A DNA stretch of 64,000 bases from positions 1 to 64,000 of the forward strand of contig DASYBM010000016.1 in assembly GCA_036500765.1 (NCBI GenBank). The letters run 5' to 3'. A program made the position numbers and the translations under genes. This DNA is from Candidatus Sulfotelmatobacter sp. (GTDB lineage Bacteria > Acidobacteriota > Terriglobia > Terriglobales > Acidobacteriaceae). Of the stretch, positions 2,075 through 18,439 are shown one piece after another. How positions within the stretch are numbered: the stretch's first letter is position 1; every line of letters begins with the position of its first letter. The notes beneath the pieces were generated by a model that worked only from the letters and a program-made list of their open reading frames with translations, ran no database searches and had not been told where the DNA came from.

Positions 2075-2088
2075 AAAGCAGAAAACAT

Positions 2089-2823: not shown

Positions 2824-2840
2824 CATTTGGCTAAGCAAAT

Positions 2841-3134: not shown

Positions 3135-3137
3135 AAC

Positions 3138-3207
3138 CGTCGTCGGTCATCGGTCGTTAGTCGTCGGCCGAGTTTGCTGAAGACCGACGACTGAAGACCG
3201 ACGACAG
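3138..3207. repeat. Inverted GTCGTYG repeat, rplW-rplB gap
   Basis: A forward arm of GTCGTCG/GTCGTTA units (3138-3167) is followed by a spacer of about 12 nt and a reverse-complement arm of GACCGACGACTGAA units. The arms could fold into a long imperfect stem that ends 17 nt before the rplB ATG. Confidence 0.8.
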
Positions 3208-3224
3208 AATTAAGAGCTGATTTT

Positions 3225-4049
3225 ATGCCGATTAAAACATACCGACCGACGACGCAGACGGTGCGCTATCGCACGACGCTGGTCAACGACGACATTACGA
3301 CCAAGCATCCGCACAAGCCGCTGCTCGAACCGAAACCTCGCACCGGCGGACGGCGAAATTCGGGCGACACCACGATGCGGTTCATCGGGGGCGGTCACAA
3401 GCGCAAGTTGCGCATCATCGACTTCAAGCGCGACAAGACCGGCATTCCCGCAACCGTCGCGACGATCGAGTACGATCCCAACCGCTCGGCGCGCATCGCG
3501 CTGCTGGCTTATGCCGATGGCGAGAAGCGTTACATCCTGCAGCCGGAAGGGCTGAAGGTGGGGCAGAAAGTTTTGAGCGGTCCTGATGCGGACATTCTTG
3601 TGGGCAACGCGCTGCCGCTGCGCAATATTCCACCCGGCACGCAGATTCACAATCTGGAACTGAAACCCGGCAAAGGGGCGCAGATGGTGCGCTCGGCGGG
3701 CGGTTCCGCGCAGCTGATCGCGAAAGAAGAAGAGTACGCCCTGGTCAAGCTGCCCTCGGGCGAGACTCGCAAGATTTCGCAGGACTGCATGGCGACGATT
3801 GGGCAGGTCGGCAATCTCGATCACGAGAACGTCACCATCGGCAAGGCGGGTCGGTCGCGCTGGCTGGGCAAGCGTCCGCATAACCGCGGCGTTTCGATGA
3901 ACCCGGTCGACCATCCGCACGGCGGCGGTGAAGGCAAAACCTCCGGCGGACGGCATCCGGTCACGCCGTGGGGACAGCCGACGCGCGGGTACAAGACGCG
4001 GAACAACAAGCGCACCGATAAGTTTATTGTGAGCCGGCGGAGCAAATAG
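3225..4049 (+). CDS. rplB: 50S ribosomal protein L2
   Basis: L2 contributes to subunit association and the peptidyl-transferase region of 23S rRNA. It is 274 residues long, the normal size. It starts [16 protein letters not shown] and contains the invariant [18 protein letters not shown] loop near residue 223. The tail is basic ([19 protein letters not shown]). The order rplW-rplB-rpsS is conserved. Confidence 0.98.
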
Positions 4050-4178
4050 TCGTTAGTCGTCGGTCGTTAGTCGTTGGCCAAAACAAAAGATTCCTCACCG
4101 GCGAAGCAAGCCAGTTCGGAATGACAGAGATTTTGGTTTGGGTTAGCTAAGAGCTAGAAGCTAAGAGCTAGAGGCTGA
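4049..4178. repeat. Compound repeat block, rplB-rpsS gap
   Basis: The 133-nt gap is almost entirely repeat. Bases 4049-4079 are GTCGTTA/GTCGTCG units. Bases 4088-4129 run from GATTCCTCACC to TCGGAATGACAG, a variant of the ATCCTTCG...AGGATGAC element. Bases 4145-4178 are AGCTAGA/AGCTAAG units ending 4 nt before the rpsS ATG. The AGAGG in that last tract is the only Shine-Dalgarno candidate. Confidence 0.8.
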
Positions 4179-4182
4179 ATTT

Positions 4183-4530
4183 ATGGCACGTTCCACGAAG
4201 AAAGGCGCGTTCGTCGATGCCTACCTGCAATCGCGGGTAGAGGGCATGAATGCGCGCAATGAGAAGAAAGTGCTGCGCACCTGGTCGCGGCGTTCGACGG
4301 TGATCCCGGAGATGGTGGGACACACGATCGCGGTGCATAACGGCAAAAAGTTTATTCCGGTGTACGTCACCGAAAACATGGTCGGCCACAAGCTGGGTGA
4401 ATTCAGTTTCACTCGCACATTCAAGGGCCACTCCATGCGGGCGGCGACGGAAGTGGCAGCCAAGCCGGCCGGTATTCCGGGCGGTCCCGGAGCGGCGGCT
4501 CCGGCGGCGGCGCCGGCGCCGAAGGCGTAG
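4183..4530 (+). CDS. rpsS: 30S ribosomal protein S19
   Basis: S19 forms a complex with S13 in the small-subunit head. The core is typical: [18 protein letters not shown] at the start, [20 protein letters not shown] in the middle and [13 protein letters not shown] at the end of the conserved part. It is 115 residues against about 92 in the family. The extra C-terminus is Ala/Pro/Gly-rich ([17 protein letters not shown]), probably disordered and of unknown role. Confidence 0.96.
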
Positions 4531-4537
4531 CAAATCA

Positions 4538-4648
4538 GCTTCTAGCTATTAGCTTCCAGCTACTGGCGAAAAGCGAGTTGGGCGGATTGCAGAATTGTTT
4601 TCCTGGCTTCTAGGTCAGCTAGAAGCTAGTGGCTAGGAGCTGGCAGCT
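4538..4648. repeat. Inverted AGCTNNN repeat, rpsS-rplV gap
   Basis: The forward arm AGCTTCTAGCTATTAGCTTC (4538-4563) and a second block (4603-4648) with AGCTAGAAGCTAGTGGCTAG are roughly reverse complements around an unrelated spacer. The block ends 3 nt before the rplV ATG, and its TAGGAG is the best ribosome-binding sequence for rplV. Confidence 0.8.
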
Positions 4649-4651
4649 ACC

Positions 4652-5113
4652 ATGGAATTTCGAGCGGAAATGCGGTATTTGCGGGTGTCGCCGCAGAAGG
4701 CGCGGCTGGTACTTGATTTGATCAAGGGCAAGCGCGTGGAAGAGGCGCGCAACACGCTGGCGTTTACCAAGAAGCGGGTGGCGGCGAACGTGGGCAAGCT
4801 GCTGCAATCGGCGCTGGACAACGCGAACTTTCTCAGCGCAGAAAAGAATCTCGACGTGGAGATCGACAACCTCTACGTGAAGAGCGCGATCGCCAACGAG
4901 GGGCCGCGCATGAAGCGTATCCGCCCGGCGCCGCAGGGACGGGCGTACCGCTATCAGCGGCGGATCGCGCACATCATTGTGATTTTGGCGGAGCGCGGGA
5001 AGAGCGGCGAAGCGGTCTCTGGCGGCACGAGTGCGGCGGCTGCGCCGCGGCGGCGAGTTCCGGCGGCGAAGGCGGCCGCAGGGAAGAGTAAGAAAAGAGC
5101 AACGGCGAAGTAA
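4652..5113 (+). CDS. rplV: 50S ribosomal protein L22
   Basis: L22 spans the large subunit and its hairpin lines the exit tunnel. The conserved part has [20 protein letters not shown] near the start and [18 protein letters not shown] near residue 89. At 153 residues it exceeds the usual 110. The tail of about 40 residues is Ala/Arg/Lys-rich and low in complexity. The ATG is fixed by the following [12 protein letters not shown]. Confidence 0.96.
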
Positions 5114-5121
5114 GGCAACAG

Positions 5122-5160
5122 CAGGTTCCTCACCCGCGCTTTGCGCGAGTTCGGAATGAC
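5122..5160. repeat. GGATGAC-type element, rplV-rpsC gap
   Basis: Element running from GGTTCCTCACCC to TTCGGAATGAC with a small internal palindrome (CGCGCTTTGCGCG). It is closest to the copy at 4088-4129. Confidence 0.6.
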
Positions 5161-5205
5161 AAAGTTTATTTGAGTTCGATTGAGCGGGTTGATTTAGGAG
5201 AAGCA

Positions 5206-5874
5206 ATGGGACAAAAAGTCCATCCTTATGGTTTCCGCCTCGGCTTCACCAAGCCGTGGAAGTCGCGCTGGTTTGCCGAGCGGGATTACGACAAACAGCT
5301 GCACGAAGACGTCCTGCTGAAGGCCGAGTTGAAAGACAAGCTGAAGTCGGCGGGCATCAGCGCAATTGAGATCGAGCGGCCGGGCAACAAGCTGCGCATC
5401 ATCATCAAGACCGCGAGGCCAGGAATCATCATCGGACGCAAGGGCGCGGAAATCGACAAGCTCAAGGGCGAGCTGCAGAAAAAGACCGCGGGCAAAGATA
5501 TTTTTGTCGACATCCAGGAAGTGCACAAGCCGGAACTTGACGCTCAACTCGTTTCCGAGGCGATCGCGCTGCAACTGGAAAAGCGCGTGGGCTTCCGCCG
5601 CGCGATGCGCAAAGCCGTCGACTCAGCCCTGCGCTTCGGCTGCAAGGGAATTAAAGTCCGCGTGAGCGGACGCCTCAACGGCAACGAAATCGCGCGCTCG
5701 GAATGGTATTTGCAAGGGCGATTGCCGCTGCACACGCTGCGCGCCGATATCGACTACGGCTTCACCGAAGCCCGCACGACGTACGGCGTGATCGGCGTGA
5801 AGTGTTGGGTGTACAAAGGCGAGATTCTTCCGCAGAAAAAGCGGGAAGCGACGGCAGTTGCCGGCGGATTCTAA
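5206..5874 (+). CDS. rpsC: 30S ribosomal protein S3
   Basis: S3 lies at the mRNA entry channel. The type-II KH domain has the [11 protein letters not shown] loop near residue 77. The C-terminal domain carries [14 protein letters not shown] and [14 protein letters not shown]. The frame is open to 5170, but the ATG at 5206 ([13 protein letters not shown]) has TTAGGAG 5 nt upstream and matches the family start exactly. The length of 222 residues is normal. Confidence 0.97.
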
Positions 5875-5884
5875 AGGAAGATTT

Positions 5885-5916
5885 GCTAAGAGCTATAAGC
5901 TAGAAGCTAAGAGCTG
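5885..5916. repeat. AGCTAGA tract, rpsC-rplP gap
   Basis: Tract of GCTAAGA/GCTATAA/GCTAGAA units ending about 5 nt before the rplP ATG. Its AAGAG is the only purine-rich sequence at ribosome-binding distance. Confidence 0.7.
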
Positions 5917-5921
5917 ATTCT

Positions 5922-6341
5922 ATGTTGATGCCAAAGAAGGTGAAGTATCGCAAGCAGCAGCGCGGGCGCATGACCGGCAAGGCGTGGCGCGGGTCGACGC
6001 TGGCGTTCGGCGACTTCGGGTTGAAGGTGCTCGAGCCTGGCTGGATCACCGACCGGCAGATTGAAGCCAGCCGCGTGGCCATGACGCGTTTCGTGAAGCG
6101 CGGAGGAAAGATCTGGATCCGCGTGTTTCCCGATAAGCCGGTCACCAAGAAGCCGGCCGAAACCCGTATGGGCAAAGGCAAAGGCGCTCCCGATCATTGG
6201 GTCGCAGTGGTGAAGCCGGGAAAGATTCTGTTTGAGATGGAAGGCGTAGCCCTGGCGGATGCGACCGAGGCAATGCGTCTGGCGTCACACAAGCTGGCGC
6301 TGCGCACGACGCTGGTGAAGCGCGAAGGCGCGAAGCATTAA
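5922..6341 (+). CDS. rplP: 50S ribosomal protein L16
   Basis: L16 helps position the A-site tRNA acceptor arm. It is 139 residues long, the family size. It starts [19 protein letters not shown] and contains [20 protein letters not shown] and [19 protein letters not shown] second ATG two codons in (at 5928) is possible, but most family members begin MLMPK. Confidence 0.97.
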
Positions 6342-6343
6342 AA

Positions 6344-6416
6344 GCAGCTTTCAGCCGTCAGCTATCAGCAAAAGCGACGGTTCAGAAAAGCTGAGAGCTG
6401 AAAGCTGAGAGCTTAA
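6344..6416. repeat. Inverted AGCTNNN repeat, rplP-rpmC gap
   Basis: The forward arm CAGCTTTCAGCCGTCAGCTA and the reverse arm AGCTGAGAGCTGAAAGCTGA flank a 22-nt spacer. The reverse arm ends 5 nt before the rpmC ATG and contains the only GAGAG at translation-initiation distance. Confidence 0.8.
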
Positions 6417-6418
6417 CT

Positions 6419-6628
6419 ATGAAATCGGACAAGATTCGCAATTTAACGGATGTGGAGTTGAAGAACCAGGAAGGCGAACTCGCCGACCAGCTCTTCAAGC
6501 TGAAATTTCAGATGAACATGGGCCAGACGGAGAGTCTGAAGAAGGTTCGCGGCCTGCGCAAGGATATTGCCCGGGTTAAGACGATCCAGGGCGAGCGCTC
6601 GCGCGCGGCCGCTGCGGAGAAGAAATAA
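6419..6628 (+). CDS. rpmC: 50S ribosomal protein L29
   Basis: L29 is a small two-helix protein near the tunnel exit. It is 69 residues long, with the typical NLTDVELKNQEGELADQLFK and KKVRGLRKDIARVKT segments. Its TAA stop shares one base with the ATG of rpsQ (TAATG), so the two are probably translationally coupled. The spelling of the N-terminus (KSDKIRNLT) fits the family. Confidence 0.95.
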   Translation: MKSDKIRNLTDVELKNQEGELADQLFKLKFQMNMGQTESLKKVRGLRKDIARVKTIQGERSRAAAAEKK

Positions 6629-6966
6629 TGGCGGAAAACAATTCAGTTCAAACCAAAGCAGCAACCCCGGCCACAGAAAAAGTGCAGGGCCGCCGCAAGG
6701 AAGTGGTGGGCGAAGTGGTCGCCAACCGCATGCAGAAGACGATTGTGGTGAAGGTGACGCGCAAGCGGGCGCATCCGTTCTACGGCCGCGTGGTGGCGCG
6801 CAACAAGAAGTTCTACGCCCACGACGAGAACAACGAAGCGCATGTGGGCGACGTGGTCCGGATCGAAGAGACGCGTCCGCTGTCGAAGCTGAAGCGCTGG
6901 AAGCTGAAAGATATTGTGCGCAAGACCACGCTGGTGCCGGAAGCTGTGACGGACGTTAAAGCGTAA
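6628..6966 (+). CDS. rpsQ: 30S ribosomal protein S17
   Basis: S17 is an early 16S-binding OB-fold protein. The core starts at about residue 24 (RKEVVGEVVANRMQKTIVV) and has RKRAHPFYGRVV and GDVVRIEETRPLSKLKRW. The total of 112 residues includes an N-terminal extension of about 24 residues rich in Ala, Thr, Asn and Gln that the family normally lacks. The start codon overlaps the rpmC stop. Confidence 0.96.
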   Translation: MAENNSVQTKAATPATEKVQGRRKEVVGEVVANRMQKTIVVKVTRKRAHPFYGRVVARNKKFYAHDENNEAHVGDVVRIEETRPLSKLKRWKLKDIVRKTTLVPEAVTDVKA

Positions 6967-6999
6967 GAGAGGGCAGACGGAAACAGGGAGATTGACGCC

Positions 7000-7371
7000 A
7001 TGGCTGTGATGATGAGATCGATGCTGGAAGTCGCCGACAACTCCGGGGCCCGCAAGCTGCAGATGATTCTGCCGCTCGGCGGCTCGACCGGATTGAATGC
7101 CGGCCTCGGCGACATAATCACGGCGGCGGTGAAAGAGTCGGTGCCCGAGGGCCAGGTGCAGAAGGGCAAAGTGGTGAAGGCGGTCATCGTACGCACGCGC
7201 AAAGAGCATCGCCGGCGCGACGGCACTTATATCCGCTTCGACCAGAACGCGGCGGTGCTGATCAACGACGCCGGCGAGCCGGTGGGCACGCGCGTGTTCG
7301 GTCCGGTGGCGCGCGAGTTGCGCGAGAAGAAATTCTTGAAGATTGTGTCGCTGGCGCCGGAAGTGATCTAA
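7000..7371 (+). CDS. rplN: 50S ribosomal protein L14
   Basis: L14 lies at the subunit interface. It is 123 residues long, the normal size. The signature [16 protein letters not shown] at the N-terminus and [20 protein letters not shown] near residue 67 are typical. An ATG at 7000 is used; two more in-frame ATGs follow within six codons. It has AGGGAG at good distance upstream. Confidence 0.97.
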
Positions 7372-7373
7372 GG

Positions 7374-7411
7374 ATTGGGTAATTGAGTAATTTTGTAATT
7401 GGGTAATTGAA
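7374..7411. repeat. AT-rich GGTAATTG tract, rplN-rplX gap
   Basis: Four degenerate copies of an 8-nt GGTAATTG/AGTAATTT unit fill the gap and end 4 nt before the rplX ATG. The base composition contrasts strongly with the flanking genes. The unit recurs, in inverted arms, before nusA. Confidence 0.75.
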
Positions 7412-7414
7412 AAC

Positions 7415-7756
7415 ATGCGAACTGCAAGCACCGAAAATAAGCGAGTGGATCTGCGGCGGAACGATACCGTGAAGGTGATCACCGGGCGCGACAAAGGCAA
7501 GGAAGGGCGCGTCTTGCGCGTGTTTCCCAACGACGCCAAACTGCTGGTCGAGCATGTGATGATGGTGAAGAAGCATGTTCGGCCCAACCCTCAGCGCAAC
7601 ATCAAGGGTGGCATTGCCGAGCAGGAGAGCCGGATCGCCATCTCCAACGTGCAACTCGTCTGCTCGACTTGCGGGCCGGTGCGCATCGGACACGAGGTGC
7701 GCGGCGATCGAAAAGTGCGCGTCTGTAAGAAGTGCGGAACGACACTGGATAAGTAA
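7415..7756 (+). CDS. rplX: 50S ribosomal protein L24
   Basis: L24 initiates large-subunit assembly through its KOW domain, visible near residues 14-40 (KVITGRDKGKEGRVLRVF). The C-terminal region has a four-cysteine pattern (CSTC then CKKC, around residues 88-110) that probably forms a zinc ribbon, as in many bacterial L24 proteins. It is 113 residues long, normal size. Confidence 0.95.
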   Translation: MRTASTENKRVDLRRNDTVKVITGRDKGKEGRVLRVFPNDAKLLVEHVMMVKKHVRPNPQRNIKGGIAEQESRIAISNVQLVCSTCGPVRIGHEVRGDRKVRVCKKCGTTLDK

Positions 7757-7872
7757 GCTGTTAGCTCTTAGCTTTTAGCTTATGGCGGCAGCTAAAACAG
7801 CAGAAACAGAACTTGAGTCTCACGAACCGGTAAACGTTGAGCTAAAGGCTAAGAGCTAACAGCTAAAAGCTG
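7757..7872. repeat. Inverted AGCTNNN repeat, rplX-rplE gap
   Basis: The forward arm TAGCTCTTAGCTTTTAGCTT (7760-7782) and the reverse arm AGCTAAAGGCTAAGAGCTAA (7840-7872) flank a spacer of about 55 nt. The arms are nearly perfect reverse complements. Unlike most blocks it ends about 48 nt before the next ATG. Confidence 0.8.
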
Positions 7873-7919
7873 ATCGCCGACAATCCGAAACCGTGAGAGG
7901 AAGTTGAAGAAGAGACGAA

Positions 7920-8555
7920 ATGGCAAAAGATAATAAAGATAATAAAGAGAAAAAGGGACAGAAGGAATCGCAGGAGCAGAAGGCGCCCGATCAGGCGCGG
8001 CATAGCGCGAAGGAACGTCCGCGTCTGCGCGCCCGGTTCGACAAGGAAGTCGCTCCGGCGCTGCTGAAAGAACTGGAATTGAAGAACGTGATGGCGGTTC
8101 CGCGGCTGCACAAGATTGTCGTCAACATGGGCGTGGGCGAAGCGACGCAGAATTCGAAAGTGCTCGACCCGGCCGTGAACGAACTGGGACAGATCACCGG
8201 ACAAAAGCCGGTCACCACCAAGGCGCGCAAGTCGATTGCCGCCTTCAAGGTGCGCGAAGGGCAGTCGATTGGCGCGATGGTCACGCTGCGCGGCGACCGC
8301 ATGTACGAATTTTTTGACCGCCTGGTGAATATCGTTCTGCCGCGCGTGCGCGACTTCAAGGGAGTTTCGACCAAGTCGTTCGACGGGCGCGGGAATTACA
8401 CGATCGGCTTGCACGACCAGTTGATCTTCCCGGAAATTTCCTACGAGAAGGTCGACAAGCAGAAAGGCATGAACGTAACCATCGTGACCACCGCCGCGAA
8501 CGACAACCAGGCGCGCACGCTGTTGAAGCACATGGGCATGCCGTTTAGAGCATAG
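7920..8555 (+). CDS. rplE: 50S ribosomal protein L5
   Basis: L5 binds 5S rRNA in the central protuberance. The conserved part begins near residue 50 ([20 protein letters not shown]) and includes [21 protein letters not shown] and [18 protein letters not shown]. The 211 residues include an N-terminal extension of about 30, highly charged and Lys/Glu/Gln-rich ([19 protein letters not shown]), that standard L5 (about 179) lacks. Confidence 0.96.
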
Positions 8556-8645
8556 GTTTCAAAGTTGCAGGGTTTCAAAGTTTCAAGATAAGTGAGTTGA
8601 AGGTGGAGTTGGCTGAGAGCTGAGAGCTAGAAGCTAGGAGCTAAG
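8556..8645. repeat. Two repeat tracts, rplE-rpsN gap
   Basis: Bases 8556-8587 are four degenerate copies of an 8-nt GTTTCAAA/GTTGCAGG unit beginning at the rplE stop. Bases 8611-8645 are AGCTGAG/AGCTAGA/AGCTAGG units that run to one base before the rpsN TTG start. The AGGAG of the last unit serves as its ribosome-binding site. Confidence 0.8.
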
Positions 8646-8646
8646 T

Positions 8647-8862
8647 TTGGCAACTACAGCAAAACGGGTTAAAGACGGAGTGGGGCTGCACCAGAAGCCC
8701 GAGGACGTGAAGAAGCCGAAGTTCTCCACGCGCAAACATAACCGCTGCAATATCTGCGGACGTCCGCGCGCGTTTCTGCGCAAGTTTGGCGTATGCCGCT
8801 TGTGCTTCCGCCAGCTCGCGCTGCGCGGGGAGATTCCCGGGGTTTCGAAGTCGTCCTGGTAG
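8647..8862 (+). CDS. rpsN: 30S ribosomal protein S14, zinc-binding (type Z)
   Basis: S14 completes assembly of the 30S head. This is the short zinc form: a C-x2-C-x12-C-x2-C pattern (CNIC then CRLC) lies near residues 36-55. Start is TTG at 8647 with AGGAG upstream supplied by a repeat unit. The predicted 71 residues exceed the usual 61 by an N-terminal stretch ([19 protein letters not shown]). The C-terminal [11 protein letters not shown] is the family ending. Confidence 0.95.
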
Positions 8863-8867
8863 AAAAG

Positions 8868-8956
8868 CGTCGTCGGTCGTCAGTCGTTGGTCGTTCGCCA
8901 AATCGAATGGACAATGGCAGCAAGGCTAACGACTAACGACCGACGACCAACGACTC
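8868..8956. repeat. Inverted GTCGTYG repeat, rpsN-rpsH gap
   Basis: Forward arm GTCGTCGGTCGTCAGTCGTT (8869 on) and reverse arm AACGACTAACGACCGACGAC (8929 on) flank a spacer of about 32 nt. It ends about 80 nt before the rpsH ATG. Confidence 0.8.
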
Positions 8957-9035
8957 GACTTAACGACCGAAGTACCGCTGCCGCAGGTTCTCCGCTTCAC
9001 GCGGAGCGAACGGGTGGCACGAGGAGAAGCAAACG

Positions 9036-9434
9036 ATGAGGTTGACCGATCCGGTGGCAGACATGCTGACGCGAGTGCGCAACGCACTCCAGGCCCGGCA
9101 CCAGAAAGTGGACATCCCGGCTTCGCGCCTGAAGCTGGAGATCGCCCGCATTCTGAAAGAAGAGGGCTACATTTCCAATTTCAAGCCGACCGAAGAGGAA
9201 GGCCACAAGGTCATCCGGATTTATCTGAAGTATGGCGCCAACAACGAGGCGGCCATCTCCAAAGTCGAGCGCGTATCGCGCCCCGGCTGCCGCGTGTACG
9301 TGCGGCGCAGCGAGATTCCCCGCGTGCTGGGCGGCATGGGGATCAACATCCTCACCACCCCGCGCGGCGTCATGACCGGACGCCAGGCCCGCAAAGAGGG
9401 CGTAGGCGGCGAGTTGCTGTGCCAGATTTATTAG
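9036..9434 (+). CDS. rpsH: 30S ribosomal protein S8
   Basis: S8 is a primary 16S rRNA binder and the autogenous repressor of the spc operon in enterobacteria. It is 132 residues long, normal size. It starts RLTDPVADMLTRVRNALQAR and ends in the conserved GVMTGRQARKEGVGGELLC region. An AGGAGAAG ribosome-binding site lies 7 nt upstream of the ATG. Confidence 0.97.
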   Translation: MRLTDPVADMLTRVRNALQARHQKVDIPASRLKLEIARILKEEGYISNFKPTEEEGHKVIRIYLKYGANNEAAISKVERVSRPGCRVYVRRSEIPRVLGGMGINILTTPRGVMTGRQARKEGVGGELLCQIY

Positions 9435-9435
9435 G

Positions 9436-9556
9436 CGGCTGTTGGCTATTGGCCTTTGGCTTTTAGCTAAGACCGCGTGAGAGTTTGCGGGAGTCGGGTT
9501 GAATTGCCGAAACAGAGAGATTTAGCCAAAAGCTAAAGGCCAAGAGCCAAGAGCGA
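9436..9556. repeat. Inverted GGCTNNN/AGCTNNN repeat, rpsH-rplF gap
   Basis: Forward arm TTGGCCTTTGGCTTTTAGCT (to about 9469) and reverse arm AGCCAAAAGCTAAAGGCCAA (from about 9525) flank a spacer of about 55 nt. The reverse arm ends 4 nt before the rplF ATG and supplies its purine-rich leader. Confidence 0.8.
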
Positions 9557-9559
9557 ACT

Positions 9560-10099: not shown

Positions 10100-10102
10100 C
10101 CG

Positions 10103-10227: not shown

Positions 10228-10231
10228 ATTT

Positions 10232-10597: not shown

Positions 10598-10599
10598 AA

Positions 10600-10684: not shown

Positions 10685-10691
10685 TTCAAGA

Positions 10692-11201
10692 ATGCCAACA
10701 GTAATCAAGAAGCTTGATGCGAATTCGTTCCAGTTGAAGGATCAGGTCGTGGCCATCAACCGCGTGACCAAGGTCGTCAAGGGCGGCAAGAATCTTTCCT
10801 TTGCCGCGCTGGTGGTGGTCGGCGATCCTTCGGCCGGAGTGGTCGGGCACGGCGCCGGGAAGGCCAAGGAAGTTCCGCAAGCCATCCGGAAGGCGATCGA
10901 GTCGGCCAAAAAGAATCTGATTAAGGTGAACCTGACGCAGACCAGCATTGCCCACCTCGTGCTGGGACGCTATGGGTCGGGAACGGTGCTGCTGAAGCCG
11001 GCGCCGGAAGGCACGGGCGTAATTGCGGGTGGCGCGGTACGCGCGGTCATGACTTCCGCCGGCGTCCAGAACGTGCTGACGAAATCGATTGGCACCACCA
11101 ATCCGCATAACGTGATCAAGGCGACCTTCGACGCGCTCAAGCAACTGAAGACGCGCGAAGGCGTCGCGACCATGCGCGGAAAGACCGCGCAGGAGCTGTA
11201 A
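10692..11201 (+). CDS. rpsE: 30S ribosomal protein S5
   Basis: S5 affects translational accuracy and mRNA unwinding. It is 169 residues long, normal size. It has the double-stranded RNA-binding-like N domain ([19 protein letters not shown] near residue 16) and the conserved [20 protein letters not shown] and [17 protein letters not shown] segments. It precedes rpmD as usual. Confidence 0.97.
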
Positions 11202-11285
11202 AACAGGACCGAGTTGTGAGTACCGAGAAAAGATGAAAGATTGAAGCTGGCCATTGGTCCCTGACCCTTGGCCCCTGAGGTTGAA

Positions 11286-11489
11286 ATGACGGCGAAGAAA
11301 ACAAGTTCGAGCGGCGCGACCATTCAGTTGAAGTGGGTGCGCTCCGCCATTTGTGCCCCGGTAAAGCAGAAGCGCGTGATCAAGGGGCTCGGCTTTACCC
11401 GGCTGAACCAGGTCATCGAGCGGCCGAACAATTCGGCCATCCGCGGCATGGTGGCCAAAGTTCCGCACATGGTGGAAGTTGTGAACTGA
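11286..11489 (+). CDS. rpmD: 50S ribosomal protein L30
   Basis: L30 is a small large-subunit protein. It is 67 residues from the ATG at 11286. The core IQLKWVRSAICAPVKQKRVI and LGFTRLNQVIERPNNSAIRG is typical, with a short Lys/Ser-rich N-terminus. The open frame reaches 11268, but the shorter start gives the usual length. Confidence 0.93.
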   Translation: MTAKKTSSSGATIQLKWVRSAICAPVKQKRVIKGLGFTRLNQVIERPNNSAIRGMVAKVPHMVEVVN

Positions 11490-11556
11490 AGCGTTCAGCG
11501 TTCAGCCCAGCGTAACCCGCTGCTGGCTGAAAGCTGACAGCTGACAGCTGAGAGCT
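11490..11556. repeat. AGCTGAC-type tract, rpmD-rplO gap
   Basis: Forward units GCGTTCAGC (11491-11505) and a reverse arm GCTGAAAGCTGACAGCTGAC (11527-11556) flank a spacer. It ends 5 nt before the rplO ATG and includes the only GAGAG near it. Confidence 0.7.
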
Positions 11557-11561
11557 TACTT

Positions 11562-12026
11562 ATGAATTTATCCAACATACGAGCACCGAAGAAGGCGACG
11601 GAAAAACGCAAACGCGTGGGTCGCGGTATGGGGTCGGGCATGGGCAAGACATCCACCCGTGGACACAAAGGCCAGCGTTCGCGCACCGGTTCGCGCATGA
11701 TCCGCGGCTTTGAGGGCGGCCAGATGCCGCTGCACCGCCGCATGCCCAAGCGCGGCTTCACCAATATTTTCCGCAAGGAATTCAATATCGTAAGCCTTGA
11801 GCGGCTGATGGAGATGGGTGAAGAATTTCACGGAGAGCCCATCACTCCCGAAGTGCTGCGCAAGGCTGGAGTCATCAAGACCAAACTTCCAGTCAAGATT
11901 TTGAGCGACGGCGAAGTCACCGTCGCGATCACCGTGCACGCGCACAAGTTCTCCAAGGCGGCGCAAGACAAAATCACCAGGGCGGGCGGCAAGGTTGAGG
12001 TCTTATCAGTGAAGGCGGGGCAGTAA
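11562..12026 (+). CDS. rplO: 50S ribosomal protein L15
   Basis: L15 is a late-assembly protein with a long basic N-terminal extension into 23S rRNA. It is 154 residues, normal size. It begins NLSNIRAPKKATEKRKRVGRG and has GRGMGSGMGKTSTRGHKGQ and GFEGGQMPLHRRMPKRGF. The TAA stop overlaps the secY ATG by one base. Confidence 0.96.
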   Translation: MNLSNIRAPKKATEKRKRVGRGMGSGMGKTSTRGHKGQRSRTGSRMIRGFEGGQMPLHRRMPKRGFTNIFRKEFNIVSLERLMEMGEEFHGEPITPEVLRKAGVIKTKLPVKILSDGEVTVAITVHAHKFSKAAQDKITRAGGKVEVLSVKAGQ

Positions 12027-13414
12027 TGTTTGAAAAACTGGCGAATATCTTCCGGATTCCCGACCTGCGCAAACGCATCCTGTTCACCCTGGGAATGCTG
12101 TTCGTGTACCGGTTGGGCGGGCACCTTCCAACGCCGGGAATCGATACGGCCAAGCTGGAAAGTTTCTTCACGCAGAGCGGGACCAGCGGATCGCTGCTGG
12201 GCTTTGTCGACCTGTTCTCCGGCGGCCAGTTGCGCCGCATGACAATTTTCGCCCTGGGCATCATGCCGTACATCACGGCATCCATCATTCTGCAATTATT
12301 GACCGTGGTCTATGAGCCGCTGGCCAAATTGCAGAAAGAAGGCGAACTGGGGCGCAAGAAGATCACGCAGTGGACGCGCTACATCACGGTCATCCTCAGC
12401 GCGGTGCAATCGTTCGGCATCGCCATCGGTTTGGAAAAGGGCGGCTTCGCGCTCAACCCCGGCTGGGGCTTCCGCCTGATGACCATGCTCACTCTCACCA
12501 CAGGCAGCGCGTTCATCATGTGGCTGGGCGAACAGATTACCGAACGCGGCGTGGGCAACGGCATGTCGCTGCTGATTTTTGCCGGCATTGTCGTAGGCCT
12601 GCCCCGCGGCGTCGTGGATCTGATCGACAAGGCCAAGAACGCCGCCTGGGGCGCAATGACCTTCCCGCTCATGGTCTTTTTGATCGTCTTCATGGTCGCG
12701 GTGGTCGGGTTCATTGTGTGGGTGGAACGAAGCGAACGGCGAATTCCCGTGCAGTACGCCAAGCGTGTGGTCGGACGCAAGGTGATGGGCGGGCAGTCGA
12801 CGCACCTGCCGTTGCGCGTGAACGCCGGCGGCGTGATGCCTGTAATCTTCGCGTCCTCGATTCTGACCCTGCCGCAGACCGTTGGGTACGGTATGCGCAA
12901 CAACCGCTACTTCGGGCCGCTGTTTGACGCGCTCAAATGGGGCGAGCCGCTGTACACGCTTCTGTATGCGGTGGGCATCATTTTCTTCGCGTATTTCTAC
13001 GTTTCCATCGTTTTCAATCCCAGCGAAGTTGCCGACAACATGCGCAAGTACGGCGGATTTATTCCTGGAATTCGTCCCGGGAAGCGTACGGCAGACTTTA
13101 TCAATGAGGTGCTTACGCGCATCACGCTGGTGGGAGCGCTGTACCTGATCATCATTTCGTTCATTCCGGAGTGGATGATTGCCGGCGTGCACCTCAACCA
13201 TCTTTACGGCCCCATCGGGAGATTCTTCGAAGGGCTGCCGAATTGGGTGACGAATGGGTTGGGTGTGACCTTTTATTTTGGCGGGACGTCGTTGCTGATC
13301 GTGGTGGGTGTGGCCATGGACACGGTGCAGCAGATCGAGGCGCAATTGATTATGCGCCACTACGACGGATTTACGCCGCGCAGCGGCCGCATTCGCGGAC
13401 GCCGCACCTGGTAA
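12026..13414 (+). CDS. secY: Protein translocase subunit SecY
   Basis: SecY is the channel of the Sec translocon in the inner membrane. It is 462 residues with about ten hydrophobic segments. Family motifs include MPYITASIILQLLTVV near residue 79, GQITERGVGNGMSLLIF-like sequence near 171, and the cytoplasmic loop ERSERRIPVQYAKR near residue 233. It overlaps rplO by one base, so expression is coupled to the ribosomal genes. Confidence 0.97.
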   Translation: MFEKLANIFRIPDLRKRILFTLGMLFVYRLGGHLPTPGIDTAKLESFFTQSGTSGSLLGFVDLFSGGQLRRMTIFALGIMPYITASIILQLLTVVYEPLAKLQKEGELGRKKITQWTRYITVILSAVQSFGIAIGLEKGGFALNPGWGFRLMTMLTLTTGSAFIMWLGEQITERGVGNGMSLLIFAGIVVGLPRGVVDLIDKAKNAAWGAMTFPLMVFLIVFMVAVVGFIVWVERSERRIPVQYAKRVVGRKVMGGQSTHLPLRVNAGGVMPVIFASSILTLPQTVGYGMRNNRYFGPLFDALKWGEPLYTLLYAVGIIFFAYFYVSIVFNPSEVADNMRKYGGFIPGIRPGKRTADFINEVLTRITLVGALYLIIISFIPEWMIAGVHLNHLYGPIGRFFEGLPNWVTNGLGVTFYFGGTSLLIVVGVAMDTVQQIEAQLIMRHYDGFTPRSGRIRGRRTW

Positions 13415-13525
13415 TGGTTTGAACCGGCAACGGTTTGAACCTGGTAACTGTTTTTGTGGGGTGGCTGCACCTCGGCTCGAATTGGGCGCCGGGGAGACTG
13501 AGCTCGGGAGGCTTTAGTCAGGCCG

Positions 13526-14227
13526 ATGGCGCAGGAAACCTCGCGTAATGTGGGTCCCGTTGTGCTGCTCGGACCACCGGGTGCCGGAAAAGGCACTCAA
13601 GCCAAGCGCATCATGGAACGTTATGGAATTCCCCAAATATCGACCGGGGACTTGCTGCGGGAGAACGTAGTCCGCGGCACGGAACTGGGACAGGCCGCCA
13701 AGGCCGTGATGGCGCGGGGAGAATTAGTTTCCGACGATTTGGTTTGCGTTATGGTCCGCGAACGGCTGGTACAGCCAGACTGCAAGCGCGGATATGTGTT
13801 AGACGGATTTCCCCGGACTGCGGCCCAGGCCGGGTGGCTCGATGCACTGCTCGACCATGAGCTCTTTGACAAATCGCGTCCTACCCGGGCTTGGCCAATT
13901 GTGATCTGCCTGGACGTGGACTATAATCAACTTTTACTCCGGATTACTGGACGCCGTTCTTGTCCCTCCTGTGGGCGGATTTATAACGTCCACTTCCAGC
14001 CGCCCCGCGTCGATGAGCTTTGCGACGAAACCGGGGAAAAGCTGGTGACCCGCAATGACGACCGGTTGGAAGTAATTCAGCCCAGACTCACGGCCTACCA
14101 GGAGCAGACGCGTCCGGTCGCGGATTACTATCAGCGTACCGGGCGGCTGATCTCGGTGAATGGCGATCTGCCCATGGACGATGTCACCGAGCAGATTTTC
14201 AGGATATTGGAAGATCATCGCGATTAG
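13526..14227 (+). CDS. adk: Adenylate kinase with zinc lid
   Basis: Catalyses ATP + AMP to 2 ADP in the cytosol. The P-loop GPPGAGKGTQAKRI is near residues 14-27 and DGFPRTAAQ near residue 93. The LID domain carries CPSCGRIY near residue 147 and a third Cys in DELCDETG, with Asp as the likely fourth zinc ligand, as in Gram-positive-type enzymes. It is 233 residues, slightly long because of a short N-terminal extension (AQETSRNVGPV). Position between secY and map is conserved. Confidence 0.96.
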   Translation: MAQETSRNVGPVVLLGPPGAGKGTQAKRIMERYGIPQISTGDLLRENVVRGTELGQAAKAVMARGELVSDDLVCVMVRERLVQPDCKRGYVLDGFPRTAAQAGWLDALLDHELFDKSRPTRAWPIVICLDVDYNQLLLRITGRRSCPSCGRIYNVHFQPPRVDELCDETGEKLVTRNDDRLEVIQPRLTAYQEQTRPVADYYQRTGRLISVNGDLPMDDVTEQIFRILEDHRD

Positions 14228-14263
14228 GCGTCAGGCTTCAAAACACCGCAGAGTCAACCAAGA

Positions 14264-15016
14264 ATGGCGATTGTGTGTAAATCGACGGCGGAAATAGAGA
14301 AGATGCGAGCGAGCGGCCATATCGTTCGCCAGGTTCTCGATCACGTCAGGACGATGGTTGTGGCCGGCGCTTCGACCATGGATTTGGAACGCGCTGCCGA
14401 GAAAAAAATTAAGGATCTCGGGGCTAAGCCCGCCTTCAAAGGGTATTACGATTATCCCTGCGTGCTGTGCACTTCGGTGAATGAAGAGATTGTGCACGGC
14501 ATTCCGTCCGAGAAGCGGGTGTTGCAGGCAGGCGATATTGTTTCAGTCGATTGCGGAGTGGTACTCGACGGCTACTACGGCGATGCGGCCATTACCGTTC
14601 CGGTGGGCAACGGAATCAAGCCGGAGTTGCAGAAGTTGCTGGAAGTAACGGAAGCGTCGTTGTACCGCGGCATTGAGCAGGCGCGGGTCGGAAACTCAGT
14701 CGGCGACGTTGGCGCGGCGGTGCAAGAGCACGTGGAAGCTGCCGGATTCAGCGTGGTACGCGAGTTCGTAGGACACGGCATTGGGACGAAGCTACACGAA
14801 GAGCCACAGGTTCCGAACTTCGGCGCGCGCGGGCATGGCGCCAAGTTGCGCGAGGGTATGGTGATCGCGATTGAGCCGATGGTGAATTACGGCAAGCCCG
14901 AGACCCGAGTGCTCGACGATAAATGGACCGCAGTCACCGCCGACGGCAGTTTCAGTGCGCACTTCGAGCATTGCGTGGCGGTAACCAAAGATGGTCCGGT
15001 GATTTTGACGCAGTAA
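14264..15016 (+). CDS. map: Methionine aminopeptidase, type I
   Basis: Removes the N-terminal Met from nascent proteins using two metal ions. It is 250 residues. The metal ligands are all visible: Asp in SVDCGVVLDGYYGDAA (two), His in GHGIGTKLHEEPQ, Glu in IEPMVNYG and Glu in FEHCVAVT. The ATG at 14264 follows adk by 36 nt. The adk-map-infA order is usual for this operon. Confidence 0.97.
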   Translation: MAIVCKSTAEIEKMRASGHIVRQVLDHVRTMVVAGASTMDLERAAEKKIKDLGAKPAFKGYYDYPCVLCTSVNEEIVHGIPSEKRVLQAGDIVSVDCGVVLDGYYGDAAITVPVGNGIKPELQKLLEVTEASLYRGIEQARVGNSVGDVGAAVQEHVEAAGFSVVREFVGHGIGTKLHEEPQVPNFGARGHGAKLREGMVIAIEPMVNYGKPETRVLDDKWTAVTADGSFSAHFEHCVAVTKDGPVILTQ

Positions 15017-15077
15017 AAGCTATTAGCTTTTAGCTCTTGGCTTTTAGCTAAGAGCCAAAGGCCAAGAGCCAAGAGCT
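15017..15077. repeat. Inverted GGCTNNN repeat, map-infA gap
   Basis: AGCTTTTAGCTCTTGGCTTT (15024 on) meets its reverse complement AGCTAAGAGCCAAAGGCCAA with almost no spacer, so it can close a compact hairpin. AAGGAG just after it is the infA ribosome-binding site. Confidence 0.8.
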
Positions 15078-15089
15078 TTTAAGGAGTCA

Positions 15090-15308
15090 ATGAGCAAAGA
15101 AGACGCGATTGAAGTGATGGCGGTGGTGCTGGAGCCGCTGCCCAATGCCATGTTCCGGGTGGAGCTGGAAAATAAACACCAGGTGCTGGCGCACGTATCC
15201 GGCAAAATGCGCAAGAACTTTATTCGCATTCTGCCAGGGGACAAAGTCGCGGTCGAACTTTCGCCCTACGATCTGAATCGCGGACGAATAGTATATCGGT
15301 ACAAATGA
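15090..15308 (+). CDS. infA: Translation initiation factor IF-1
   Basis: IF-1 occupies the A site during initiation. It is a 72-residue single S1/OB-fold protein. [20 protein letters not shown] and [18 protein letters not shown] are characteristic. AAGGAG is 6 nt upstream of the ATG. Confidence 0.97.
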
Positions 15309-15317
15309 TTTTTGTTT

Positions 15318-15350
15318 GCTGACAGCTGATAGCTGACGGCTGAAAGCTGG
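15318..15350. repeat. AGCTGAC-type tract, infA-rpmJ gap
   Basis: Tract of four to five units (GCTGACA, GCTGATA, GCTGACG, GCTGAAA), single orientation, ending 7 nt before the rpmJ ATG. Confidence 0.7.
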
Positions 15351-15356
15351 TCTTAT

Positions 15357-15470
15357 ATGAAAGTACGAGCATCGGTAAAGAAAATTTGCGACAAGTGCAA
15401 AGTCATCCACCGCAAAGGTGTGGTGCGGGTGATTTGCGTCAACTCGAAACATAAACAGCGCCAGGGCTAA
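15357..15470 (+). CDS. rpmJ: 50S ribosomal protein L36
   Basis: L36 is a 37-residue zinc-ribbon protein and the smallest gene of the cluster. The translation starts [20 protein letters not shown] and ends SKHKQRQG. The zinc ligands are the C-x2-C pair at residues 11 and 14, Cys27 and the His in SKHKQ. Its place between infA and rpsM is canonical. All positions follow directly from reading the bases. Confidence 0.96.
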
Positions 15471-15473
15471 AAA

Positions 15474-15537
15474 ATAGCTTTTTGGCTCTTAGCTCTTGGC
15501 TTTTAGCTAAGAGCCAAAAGCCAAAAGCCAAAAGCAG
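15474..15537. repeat. Inverted GGCTNNN repeat, rpmJ-rpsM gap
   Basis: TTTTTGGCTCTTAGCTCTTG (15479 on) faces AAGAGCCAAAAGCCAAAAGC directly, with a loop of only a few bases. The end of the tract merges with AGGAG, the rpsM ribosome-binding site. Confidence 0.8.
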
Positions 15538-15546
15538 GAGTTGAGA

Positions 15547-15933
15547 ATGGCACGTATTGCAGGCGTCGATCTACCGCGCCAGAAGCACATTAACATCGCG
15601 TTGACTTATATCTATGGCATCGGTCATCCGCGCGCCAGCCGCCTGTGCGATGAGGCGAAGGTCGACCCGATGAAAAAGGTGCAGGACCTCAGCGAAGAAG
15701 AGGTCAACCGCATCCGCACGGTCATTGAGCAGGAAGGCCTGGTCGAGGGCGATCTGCGCAAGGAAGTTTCGATGAACATCAAGCGTCTCATCGAAATCGG
15801 CTCCTATCGCGGATTCCGCCATCGCCGCAACCTGCCGGTCCGCGGCCAACGAACTCACACCAATGCCCGTACCCGTAAAGGTCCGCGCAAAGGAACGGTC
15901 GCACAGAAGAAGAAGGCGACGGCAAAGACTTAA
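15547..15933 (+). CDS. rpsM: 30S ribosomal protein S13
   Basis: S13 contacts the P-site tRNA and forms bridges to the large subunit. It is 128 residues from the ATG at 15547, which has AGGAG 6 nt upstream; a TTG at 15541 is less likely. It starts [20 protein letters not shown] and has the C-terminal [20 protein letters not shown]. Confidence 0.97.
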
Positions 15934-15936
15934 GAG

Positions 15937-15991
15937 CAGCTTCTAGCTTCTAGCCTCTGGCTAGAAGCTAAAAGCTAGGAGCTAAGAGCTA
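15937..15991. repeat. Inverted AGCTNNN repeat, rpsM-rpsK gap
   Basis: AGCTTCTAGCTTCTAGCCTC pairs with AGAAGCTAAAAGCTAGGAGC around a very short loop. It ends 3 nt before the rpsK ATG, and its TAGGAG is the ribosome-binding candidate. Confidence 0.8.
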
Positions 15992-15993
15992 CC

Positions 15994-16428
15994 ATGGCTA
16001 AACCAGCAGCAGCGGGCGGCGCAGCCGCCGCACCGGATAAAAAAGGCAAGAAAAAAACCTTCAAAAAGAAGGAGCGCAAGCACGTCCCGCACGGACTGTG
16101 CTATGTGCAGGCTTCTTTCAACAATACGATCGTGACCATTACTGACATGAACGGCAACGTTCTGTCGTGGAAGAGTTCAGGCTCGCTCGGCTTCCGCGGA
16201 TCGCGTAAAGGCACGCCCTTCGCCGCCCAGCAGGCCGCGTCGAACGCCGCCAACATGGCGCGCGATCACGGCGTGCGCAGCGTGGATGTGCGCGTCAGCG
16301 GCCCGGGCTCCGGCCGCGAGTCGGCCGTGCGCGCGTTGGCGTCCTCGGGAATCGAAGTGCGCTCCATACGCGACGTCACCCCGATTCCGCACAACGGATG
16401 CCGTCCGCCAAAGAGAAGGCGCGTTTAA
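15994..16428 (+). CDS. rpsK: 30S ribosomal protein S11
   Basis: S11 lies in the platform near the E-site codon. The core [20 protein letters not shown] starts near residue 36 and [20 protein letters not shown] ends the protein. It is 144 residues with an N-terminal extension of about 15 residues rich in Ala and Lys. Confidence 0.97.
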
Positions 16429-16445
16429 GCAGCCGCAGTAGTGAA

Positions 16446-16521
16446 TAAGCTGCTAGCTTCTAGCTCCTGGCAAAGCGGACCTGGATTAGCTAGAAGCTAG
16501 CGGCTAGAAGCTAGAAGCTGT
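16446..16521. repeat. Inverted AGCTNNN repeat, rpsK-rpsD gap
   Basis: AGCTGCTAGCTTCTAGCTCC (16449 on) and AGCTAGAAGCTAGCGGCTAG (16489 on) flank a 20-nt spacer. The arms are close to those of the rplR-rpsE block, but here 60 nt of unrelated leader separates the block from the start codon. Confidence 0.85.
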
Positions 16522-16584
16522 TTTACCGTCCGGGACGAAGGGTGAAGCCAAACCCGTAAACCGGTCATCTAAAGGAGAAGAAAC

Positions 16585-17214
16585 TTGGCCCGTTATACCG
16601 ATGCAGTCTGCCGTCTATGTCGCCGCGAGGGCATGAAGCTGTTCCTCAAAGGCGCAAAGTGCTTCAGCGATAAATGTCCTATCGAGAAGCGCAACTTCGC
16701 TCCCGGACAACATGGCAAGGACCGCAAAGCCAAGATTGTTGGCTACGGCTTGCAGTTGCGCGAGAAGCAGAAGGCCAAACGTATTTACTTTACGCAGGAA
16801 GGCCAGTTCCGCAACTACTTCGAGAAGGCCGCGGCCTCGCAGGGCGTAACCGGCGAGAAGCTGCTGCAACAGCTCGAGCGCCGTCTCGACAACGTTGTCT
16901 TCCGCCTGGGATTCGCCCAGTCCCGGCGTCAGGCGCGCCAGTTGGTGCGTCACGGCCACGTTGCCGTGGATAATCGCAAGGTGAACATTCCGTCGTATGA
17001 AGTAAGCGCCGGCGAAGAGATCGCGATTCGCGAGAACAGCAAGAAGCTCGCCGTGCTCGAACTGGCCAAGGAATTCGCCAGCCACGGCACGATGCCAAAC
17101 TGGCTGGAAGTCGACCGCGACAATTACAAGGCAAGAGTACTGAGCCTGCCCAAGCGCGAAGATATTCAGCTGCCGGTAAACGAGCAGTTGATTGTGGAAC
17201 TGTATAGTAAGTAA
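16585..17214 (+). CDS. rpsD: 30S ribosomal protein S4, zinc-binding form
   Basis: S4 is a primary 16S rRNA binder and, in many bacteria, the repressor of the alpha operon. It is 209 residues. Start is TTG at 16585 with AAAGGAGAAG upstream. The N-terminus keeps four cysteines (CRLC at residues 9-12, then Cys in KCFSDKC), the zinc-containing form. The S4 RNA-binding domain is [20 protein letters not shown] near residue 99. Confidence 0.97.
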
Positions 17215-17293
17215 GTCGTTGTTCAGTTCGTCGGTCGTCAGTCGTCGGCTAGAATCCGACGGCCGACGACCGACGACCGACGACCGACGACGG
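17215..17293. repeat. Inverted GTCGTYG repeat, rpsD-rpoA gap
   Basis: Forward arm GTCGGTCGTCAGTCGTCGGC (17230 on) and reverse arm CCGACGGCCGACGACCGACG (17257 on) with a spacer of about 7 nt. The reverse arm holds four consecutive CGACGAC units. It is about 110 nt before rpoA. Confidence 0.85.
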
Positions 17294-18438: not shown

Positions 18439-18439
18439 G

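Follow-up and report, generated by a model that had tools for sequence, protein, structure and literature searches.

Among short tandem repeats of bacteria, the short tandemly repeated repetitive (STRR) sequences of cyanobacteria presumably have units of 7 nucleotides (nt), several kinds to a genome. Calothrix heptanucleotides are mentioned by Rehm et al. (2015, PMC4692102), who described GGGAATC / GGGGA(C/T)T heptamer repeats in Xanthomonas and Nostoc. These heptamers are intergenic, form convergent pairs (70 in one genome, 75 in another) and follow an edge rule, with sense copies at most 50 bp after a stop codon and antisense copies at most 50 bp before a start (PMC4692102). Direct repeats of TAACTGA have been reported from Beggiatoaceae (MacGregor 2015, PMC4679880). 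Here we set beside these systems a 64,000-nt stretch (the window) of a 5.04-Mb Acidobacteriota genome that is Candidatus Sulfotelmatobacter-like (the study genome), in which hairpins of tandem 7-nt, less often 8-nt, units lie in the gaps of a ribosomal-protein operon. Our tentative preference is that these hairpins originate and are rebuilt at the level of DNA and are kept in operon gaps. An initial annotation of the window had contrasted the tracts with known bacterial repeats, taken to be longer units of fixed sequence; the Xanthomonas heptamers and their convergent pairs contradict that description (PMC4692102).

Arrays of 7-nt units at gene edges

Tandem AGCTNNN, GTCGTYG and 8-nt AATTNNNN and GTTTCAAA units fill most gaps of the ribosomal operon. 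The initial annotation had named two families, AGCTNNN and GTCGTYG. Both are borne out, and tracts are present at every place it cited within the operon (10603-10681, 16448-16519, 17215-17291 and 3139-3207) and outside it (29098-29174, 51949-52027 and 61260-61412); there are, however, many more families, the two 8-nt ones included. It had also taken two opposed arms to be usual, and paired arrays are indeed seen, but so are solo arms and gaps with arms of mixed vocabulary.

Counts were made in a sample of the study genome comprising 21 stretches and 464 kb (70,312 intergenic and 393,688 coding bases). AGCT pairs at a spacing of 7 (AGCT-N3-AGCT) occur 89 times in the intergenic bases vs once in the coding bases; other intergenic spacings up to 13 give at most 3 pairs each, and spacing 14 gives 64. 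GTCG and CGAC pairs show the same behaviour, less cleanly. Strong tandem runs in intergenic DNA have period 7 in 97 cases, 14 in 68 and 21 in 17, with periods 8, 15 and 16 at 11, 22 and 20, periods 6 and 12 at 10 each, period 24 at 9 and the rest at 5 or fewer. Sorted by gap, 64 gaps have a period of 7 or 8, 6 of 5 or 6, 3 of 9 or 10, 1 of 10 or 11 and 9 of 12 or 13. Ribosomal gaps of the same genus (n=394) have period 7 in 296 and period 8 in 71, and 3 or fewer have periods of 4-6 and 9-13. Genome-wide, AGCTN3AGCTN3AGCT has 158 copies in the study genome, while its reversed-order control and a version with N2 spacing have 0. A unit resembles its neighbour slightly more than it does after shuffling (0.587 vs 0.540). 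A chance origin of the arrays is excluded. Misassembly of repeats, to which metagenome-assembled genomes (MAGs) could be prone, is an unlikely source because the same pattern recurs in many assemblies.

The arrays are not spread evenly over gap types. Considering gaps of 30-300 nt in the 464 kb, the ribosomal operon has arrays in 22 of its 29, compared with 28 of 180 co-directional gaps elsewhere, 2 of 37 convergent gaps and 1 of 32 divergent gaps. Ribosomal gaps differ from other co-directional gaps (p=1.5e-10), and outside the operon co-directional gaps differ from the others (p=0.017). At a looser threshold, co-directional gaps with arrays number 4 of 8 in the atp region, 3 of 7 in the surroundings of tsf and 5 of 10 in the nuo region, where NADH dehydrogenase genes were identified. 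Even where the gap exceeds 300 nt, 12 of 17 arrays are at most 40 nt from a gene edge (3.0 expected; 0 of 100000 simulations). Orientation is fixed as well: one array form follows stops and its reverse complement precedes starts in 67 of the 76 arrays of the study genome within 40 nt of an edge (right-form before starts, 34/36; left-form after stops, 33/40), and at least one exception is a whole hairpin merged into a single array.

In ribosomal gaps, the left units are mostly YRG-Y-NN-Y and the right units are the reverse complement. Form and side agree for 178 and disagree for 27 of 238 arrays in the genus, and agree for 143 and disagree for 15 of 192 in other genera, with ties making up the remainder. 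YRGNNNY fits 199/238 and 147/192 of these arrays, respectively, vs 0.22 and 0.21 when permuted, although the grammar was derived from the ribosomal gaps of the same genomes on which it was scored. Across ten further genomes, the outward strand of 36 of 67 edge arrays fits and the inward strand of 10 (permuted, 0.17); three same-family genomes account for 35/57 and the other seven for 1/10.

The placement of right-form arrays raises the question of whether they serve as a ribosome-binding element other than the Shine-Dalgarno (SD) motif, or as a stop element covering all frames, with the left arms secondary. Stop codons are enriched in right arms (0.098 per position vs 0.053 in shuffled arms), with all three frames covered in 94/157, and SD motifs are rarer at array starts (15/46 vs 170/332, p=0.019, three starts being counted twice because loci L139 and L168 overlap). 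TAACTGA of Beggiatoaceae is similarly placed (PMC4679880). However, left arms after stops are as common (33) as right arms before starts (34) and many right arms are locked in stems, and we regard this explanation as very improbable. Growth of left arrays from a TAG stop was rejected: their units lie near phase 0 to the stop (related species' gaps not being independent), yet with genes stratified there is no enrichment of TAG beside arrays (odds ratio 1.05 within the genus and 1.30 in other genera; p=0.27 in the study-genome sample).

Pairing, turnover and origin of the hairpins

The median hairpin with arrays (n=312) has a stem running from 4 nt past the stop to 18.5 nt before the start, with a loop of 21 nt and 23 Watson-Crick pairs; the loop is shorter than 10 nt in 56 of the 312. 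Free energy per nt over 185 gaps with arrays is -0.381 vs -0.262 when shuffled. Folded against shuffled controls, the study genome's gaps of at least 40 nt have a mean z of -2.7, and the stems proposed in the initial annotation gain support in 17 of 28 gaps (z below -2, with 14 below -3) but not in the other 11, 4 of which lie above 0 and 2 at -0.3.

Orthologous gaps were read in 20 of 24 same-genus relatives, and counts across species are not independent. Loci L009, L010, L012 and L017 look like the same records as genomes G004, G016, G010 and G014, respectively, and because some loci and genomes look identical the "at least 79%" group of relatives overlaps the same-genus set. In these genomes the arms are not randomly placed but recur at the same gene edges, and they remain paired although their sequence changes, the outcome that the initial annotation had named as support for a function. 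In the S13-S11 gap, 15 genomes carry AGCTYYT, GTTTCAAA, CAGTTCT, CAGTTG-type, AGCYRTT or GTCGTTG units. At nine gap positions checked within the genus, the gap is only 0-12 nt long in ten relative-gap cases. Strict labelling gave 110 same-genus gaps with arrays in both halves; where both arms were labelled (62), their vocabulary agreed in 56 (within-gap shuffle mean 45.3, maximum 54 in 2000). Among 43 AGCT pairs, the share of reverse-complement 9-mers in common is 0.171 between partner arms vs 0.060 with the same gap of other species and 0.088 with other gaps of the same genome, and 0 of 5000 within-gap permutations reach 0.171. A comparison of arms over 50-nt edges was mixed, with 99/375 in the best tenth and 15 of 28 gaps without an advantage, that is, with a median rank of 0.5 or worse against other species' arms.

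Hairpins can switch en bloc. Two relatives whose SecY DNA is 93.4% identical (L123 and L124) carry a CAGTTCT-type and a TTTCAAAG-type hairpin, respectively, in the gap at 15934-15993; their gap at 11490-11561 measures 22 against 99 nt, and that at 18439-18619 is nearly unchanged. Two nearby nuo gaps of the study genome have near-identical arms and a similar loop. An alignment of the L18-S5 gap (14 of 20 rows, AGCT types only) yielded a 21-pair helix by RNAalifold. Double-change cells, which count sequences and not events, number 29 vs 11.1 in shuffles (0/500) and 2-4 in slid controls; 9 of the 21 pairs have changes on both sides vs 6.4 shuffled (22/500), and further pair types number 19, fewer than the 22.3 in shuffles. 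Because the unit subtypes of both L18-S5 arms all shift together, the unit-wise change looks like concerted evolution rather than pair-by-pair compensation.

The arrays also go with gap length. Across 86 genomes with at least 10 ribosomal gaps each, median gap and array share correlate (rho 0.78), the median ribosomal gap being 22.5 nt in the 34 genomes whose array share is below 5% and 94 nt in the 27 whose share is at least 40%. Most Bryobacterales loci have 0 or 1 gaps with an array, Terriglobus albidus has 0/27 and a Terracidiphilus MAG 15/26. Within a sample of the phylum, the AGCT triple occurs in 37 of 149 genomes, and counts above 60 are confined to the family of the study genome; seven genomes of one same-family genus have nearly none (0-3), and four genomes of other families have 26-55 copies. 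Some other families carry TCGANNN triples instead, with 173, 97 and 74 copies in G143, G108 and G070, where the AGCTNNN triple is absent; this is perhaps another vocabulary. The stretches examined of G070 and G108, which are TCGANNN-rich genome-wide, held no period-7 array.

It is observed directly that the units have a period of 7 or 8, that they are nearly absent from coding DNA, that they lie at gene edges with fixed polarity, that the two arms of a gap tend to share vocabulary and details of their units, and that close relatives differ by the swap, gain or loss of whole hairpins. We propose that units would multiply by replication slippage over 7-8 nt, that one arm would serve as template for its inverted counterpart through template switching or fold-back synthesis, and that recombination would spread copies between gaps. 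Inverted copying would keep the arms complementary without selection on single pairs. Selection would remove hairpins from coding and promoter-bearing DNA, and operon-internal gaps may keep most of them because these gaps are without promoters and a stem between stop and start would be tolerated or mildly useful there, through translation coupling or mRNA protection. Judged from sequence comparison, the en bloc swaps, the similar nuo hairpins, the near-loopless cases and the unit-wise change in both arms favour such an origin at the DNA level. The initial annotation had offered slippage products kept by selection for stems as one possibility, which fits as well or better than its other one, but the step of inverted copying must be added.

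That other possibility was an RNA processing or stability element. More broadly, the hairpins may be sequence-independent intercistronic stem-loops under selection for a function in the RNA, an explanation that is somewhat doubtful but almost as probable as the DNA-level origin. Translation coupling is conceivable because only some 4 nt separate the stop from the stem, which would presumably be within reach of the terminating ribosome; the ribosome would open the stem and free the downstream start; alternatively, the stem could protect or process the mRNA and set the stoichiometry of multi-subunit operons. The occurrence of arrays in operons for large complexes (ribosomal, 22/29; atp, 4/8; nuo, 5/10; nusA-infB) is consistent with such a function, as are the polarity at stop and start sides, the L18-S5 covariation, the low free energy and the scarcity of SD motifs at array starts. 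The checks proposed in the initial annotation thus turn out largely in its favour, but they do not carry the step to an RNA processing or stability element, given the missing G-U signature (a weak test, see below), the swaps of whole hairpins and the empty gaps of 0-12 nt in the same positions of some same-genus genomes. The shortfall of further pair types at L18-S5, the 11 poorly folding gaps of the study genome and the 15 gaps in which partner arms have no advantage over other species' arms also count against it. A model in which folding collapses the distance between genes was dropped, the predicted path from stop to start being 10 nt vs 9.5 nt in shuffles, not shorter.

The gain, loss and swap of whole hairpins, and the similar hairpins in neighbouring gaps, would also be expected of mobile palindromic elements (REPIN/MITE-like) inserting into intergenic DNA and decaying afterwards. 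Seven Y1-type transposase matches were found, on contigs C15, C16, C17 and C4, one with an internal stop. However, there is no fixed element sequence, unit number and loops vary, arrays keep to gene edges in long gaps too, and host sequence lies between the arms of the L24-L5 gap. Arrays occur in 3 of the 7 Y1 loci (about 3.3 kb each), one of AGCC/AGCT type, which is not above general density. We consider mobile elements quite unlikely.

If selection acts on mRNA pairing, G-U mismatches should be tolerated and A-C mismatches should not. The 312 hairpins with arrays contain 367 G-U vs 331 A-C mismatches (p=0.19), and the 60 hairpins with at least 90% matches contain 24 vs 17 (p=0.35). This absence of a G-U excess fits an origin at the DNA level, but the test has little power, and several results weigh against that origin. 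The conserved S8, S4 and rpoA leaders in the same gaps have G-U fractions of only 0.60, 0.61 and 0.51; pooled, they give 802 G-U vs 639 A-C, and heptad hairpins treated alike give 459 vs 398 (0.54), the cells not being independent. An E. coli rRNA control gave no hairpin at a score of at least 20, and 14 G-U vs 11 A-C at 14. Because the leader control shows how weak the test is, we lowered our confidence in the DNA-level origin and raised that in an RNA function to the strengths given here. In addition, no intermediate of inverted copying was found among the relatives at hand, none of which is close enough to serve as a strain pair, and slippage alone leaves unexplained both the enrichment in co-directional and ribosomal gaps and the polarity at stops and starts; both points weaken the proposal. 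Finally, the AGCT arms of the L24-L5 gap (7756-7871, plus strand, fold z -4.3) flank the 5' half of a leader hairpin that is itself conserved. The left arm lies outside and the right arm within the leader's loop, an arrangement for which two separate events, or selection, would be needed.

This leader-like hairpin (7757-7919; tctcacgaaccggt ... ccgaaaccgtgag) was found by pattern in 12 of the 18 rows searched and not in the other six. Its loop is 8 nt long in L122 and L124, and in the study genome and nine other relatives it holds an AGCT arm of 32-65 nt. Where a heptad arm occupies this loop, the leader could make a pseudoknot or a switch with the upstream arm.

If the DNA-level origin is right, the same gaps of essential operons, filled in many species with different words but one architecture, offer a natural experiment on the making and upkeep of pairing where no letters are conserved. 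One could then ask whether inverted copying during replication mimics the covariation that normally counts as proof of an RNA structure, and the system would bear on why slippage favours 7-8 nt. The finding also bears on the growth of ribosomal-operon gaps from about 22 to about 94 nt.

Elements along the window

The closest named SecY matches are from Acidobacteriaceae palsa_252 (93%) and Candidatus Sulfotelmatobacter sp. (88%). Genes for S10, L23, L2, S19, L5, S14, L6, L18, S5, SecY, S11, S4 and RpoA were named by NCBIfam, and those for L16, L24, S8, Adk, IF-1, S13 and L17 by Pfam; the remaining genes of the cluster we take to be what gene order alone suggests, the gene at 11562 being L15 by order. 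Gap borders were set by a home-made gene finder. It missed L36 (rpmJ, 15357-15470), which was read by eye inside the apparent gap 15309-15546 and has heptad elements on both sides, and it probably placed the start codon of the gene following Adk too far downstream; for these reasons the gaps 15309-15546 and 14228-14359 are partly coding. Searches of the study genome for rpoB and 23S rRNA found none, a limit of the assembly.

The elements described below are on the plus strand except where noted. GTCG/CGAC hairpins lie between L23 and L2 (3139-3207, z -6.7), S14 and S8 (8869-8954, z -5.4), L6 and L18 (10106-10229, z -5.3), and S4 and the conserved stretch before rpoA (17215-17291, z -5.0 for the whole gap). 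GTCG/CGAC arms are also found 3' of infB (IF-2; 29098-29174) and, outside the operon, at 51949-52027. AGCT hairpins occur 3' of S19 (4537-4648, arms 4537-4561 and 4617-4648, z -3.7), between L18 and S5 (10603-10681, z -3.6, used for covariation), between S13 and S11 (15938-15990, z -2.5, with many vocabularies in relatives) and between S11 and the conserved stretch before S4 (16448-16519, z -4.8 for the whole gap). Outside the operon, AGCT arms lie at 61260-61412, 5' of a gene matching the 50S ribosome-binding GTPase family. Variants of the unit form an AGCTNTC/AGCTGAN hairpin 3' of L16 (6346-6413, z -4.4), a GGCTYTT/AGCCAAR hairpin between S8 and L6 (9437-9554, z -6.3), a near-loopless AGCT/GGCT hairpin 5' of IF-1 (15018-15077, z -4.1) and an AGCT/GGCT hairpin between L36 and S13 (15484-15529). 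Arms of 8-nt AATT units stand 5' of nusA (24438-24534).

Mixed gaps combine vocabularies. The gap before S10 (659-887; arrays within 661-816, z -2.4) has a GTCG-form left arm at 661-706 and an AGCT-form right arm at 785-816, and the L2-S19 gap (4050-4182; element 4049-4176) has a GTCG left arm at 4049-4073 and an AGCT right arm at 4145-4176. The latter contains a further palindrome between its arms and folds little better than shuffled sequence (z -1.2). At 4080-4145, and in gaps 4 and 5 of related loci, another dispersed palindrome, GATTCCTC ... GGAATGACA, lies between the arms in several genomes.

Single arrays follow the same polarity. Left-form AGCT/GGCT arrays lie directly 3' of the S10 stop codon (1217-1241, z -1.9) and, solo, 3 nt past a stop codon in a 678-nt gap (44683-44721); solo left-form GTCG arrays lie at 2051-2068 (z -1.0) and 3' of a stop codon at 19806-19823 (z -0.3). 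Right-form AGCT arrays include a solo one 6 nt 5' of the L16 start codon (5891-5915, z +1.2, no hairpin), one before S14 (8611-8642, z +0.9) with 8-nt GTTTCAAA units to its left (8556-8586), and one on the minus strand, 8 nt 5' of a start codon (31238-31262). The gene at 11562 is preceded by an AGCTGAN right arm (11525-11556, z -3.4) with 7-nt AGCGTTC units to its left (11490-11506). The rpoA-L17 gap (18446-18608, z -3.2) holds 8/16-nt TTTCA units at 18446-18476 and a right-form AGCT array at 18577-18608, and an unpaired 8-nt AATTNNNN array lies 5' of L24 (7381-7408, z +1.0). In one related locus (L167, 17974-18595), a 622-nt convergent gap has matching heptad arms at both extreme ends, about 550 nt apart.

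Conserved non-coding stretches stand before S8 (8960-9035), S4 (16520-16584) and rpoA (17292-17400) in the genus. They are perhaps ribosomal-protein leader RNAs, although none has an Rfam match over the gathering score. Known structured RNA families were rejected for positions 1-20000, where twelve weak Rfam matches all fell short of that score. Intrinsic terminators (a G+C-rich stem with a T run) were likewise rejected as an identity for the hairpins: terminator-like sites number 34 vs 24.8 in shuffles, the sole clear one named is at 19144-19168, 3' of L17, and among heptad hairpins 5-pair matches are few (9437, 6357, 15337 and 16497).

Comparison with described repeats

We know of no heptad units in the operon elements called SRPS. 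As presented by Bhaskar et al. (2021, PMC8219983), SRPS resemble the hairpins described here in being stem-loops inside multi-subunit operons, those for ribosomal proteins and ATP synthases included; they differ in being supported by RNA data, whereas ours are known from sequence alone. REP and REPIN elements share extragenic inverted pairs able to form hairpins, but have a fixed, longer sequence and a linked transposase family, according to Bertels and Rainey (2011, PMC3116915). We rejected an identity with them, as the window has no fixed palindrome and the sequence at a given gap is replaced between species, and we rejected a link to RAYTs, as arrays show no concentration at the seven Y1 matches.

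The TAACTGA repeats come closer. They are 7-nt tandem units directly before starts, ribosomal operons included, that replace the SD region (PMC4679880), and TAACTGA fits the right-arm grammar found here. They consist of one fixed unit in direct repeats (one indirect) with no predicted stems (PMC4679880), whereas the arrays of the window have other units, often as inverted pairs. Read outward, the published units CAGTTAT, CGGGAAT and TGGGGAT fit YRGNNNY in 3 of 3 cases, at an estimated chance of about 0.2 each, and serve as a lead only. It is rather unlikely, though it would matter if true, that inverted arms of 7- or 8-nt units arise at bacterial gene edges through a general and hitherto unrecognised process, in fixed orientation and with a shared YRGNNNY grammar read outward, the heptamers of Xanthomonas, Nostoc and Beggiatoaceae being single-vocabulary cases. 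Operons would then contain stem-loops of freely exchangeable sequence whose architecture, period and polarity are kept.

Among the literature matches listed, all from open-licence literature, there was no description of such hairpins in Acidobacteriota. Among these soil bacteria, hairpins that occupy one and the same gap are often spelled in different words from species to species, a pattern that suggests a little-known process by which paired sequence is rebuilt again and again at gene edges. The heptamers of Xanthomonas and Nostoc have in common with the arrays reported here degenerate tandem 7-nt units, an intergenic concentration and the strand rule at gene edges, which holds here for 33/40 left-form and 34/36 right-form arrays within 40 nt. 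They have one G-rich, quadruplex-forming vocabulary with four units preferred (PMC4692102). By reading, the AGCT and GTCG units of the window contain no run of three G, whereas a rarer TNAGGGG vocabulary in some relatives does hold a G run. Short heptamer repeats themselves are therefore already known; what is new here, relative to those published, is that one genome carries many vocabularies, that the arms are often paired within operons (ribosomal, nuo and atp), and that the hairpins are swapped between species.

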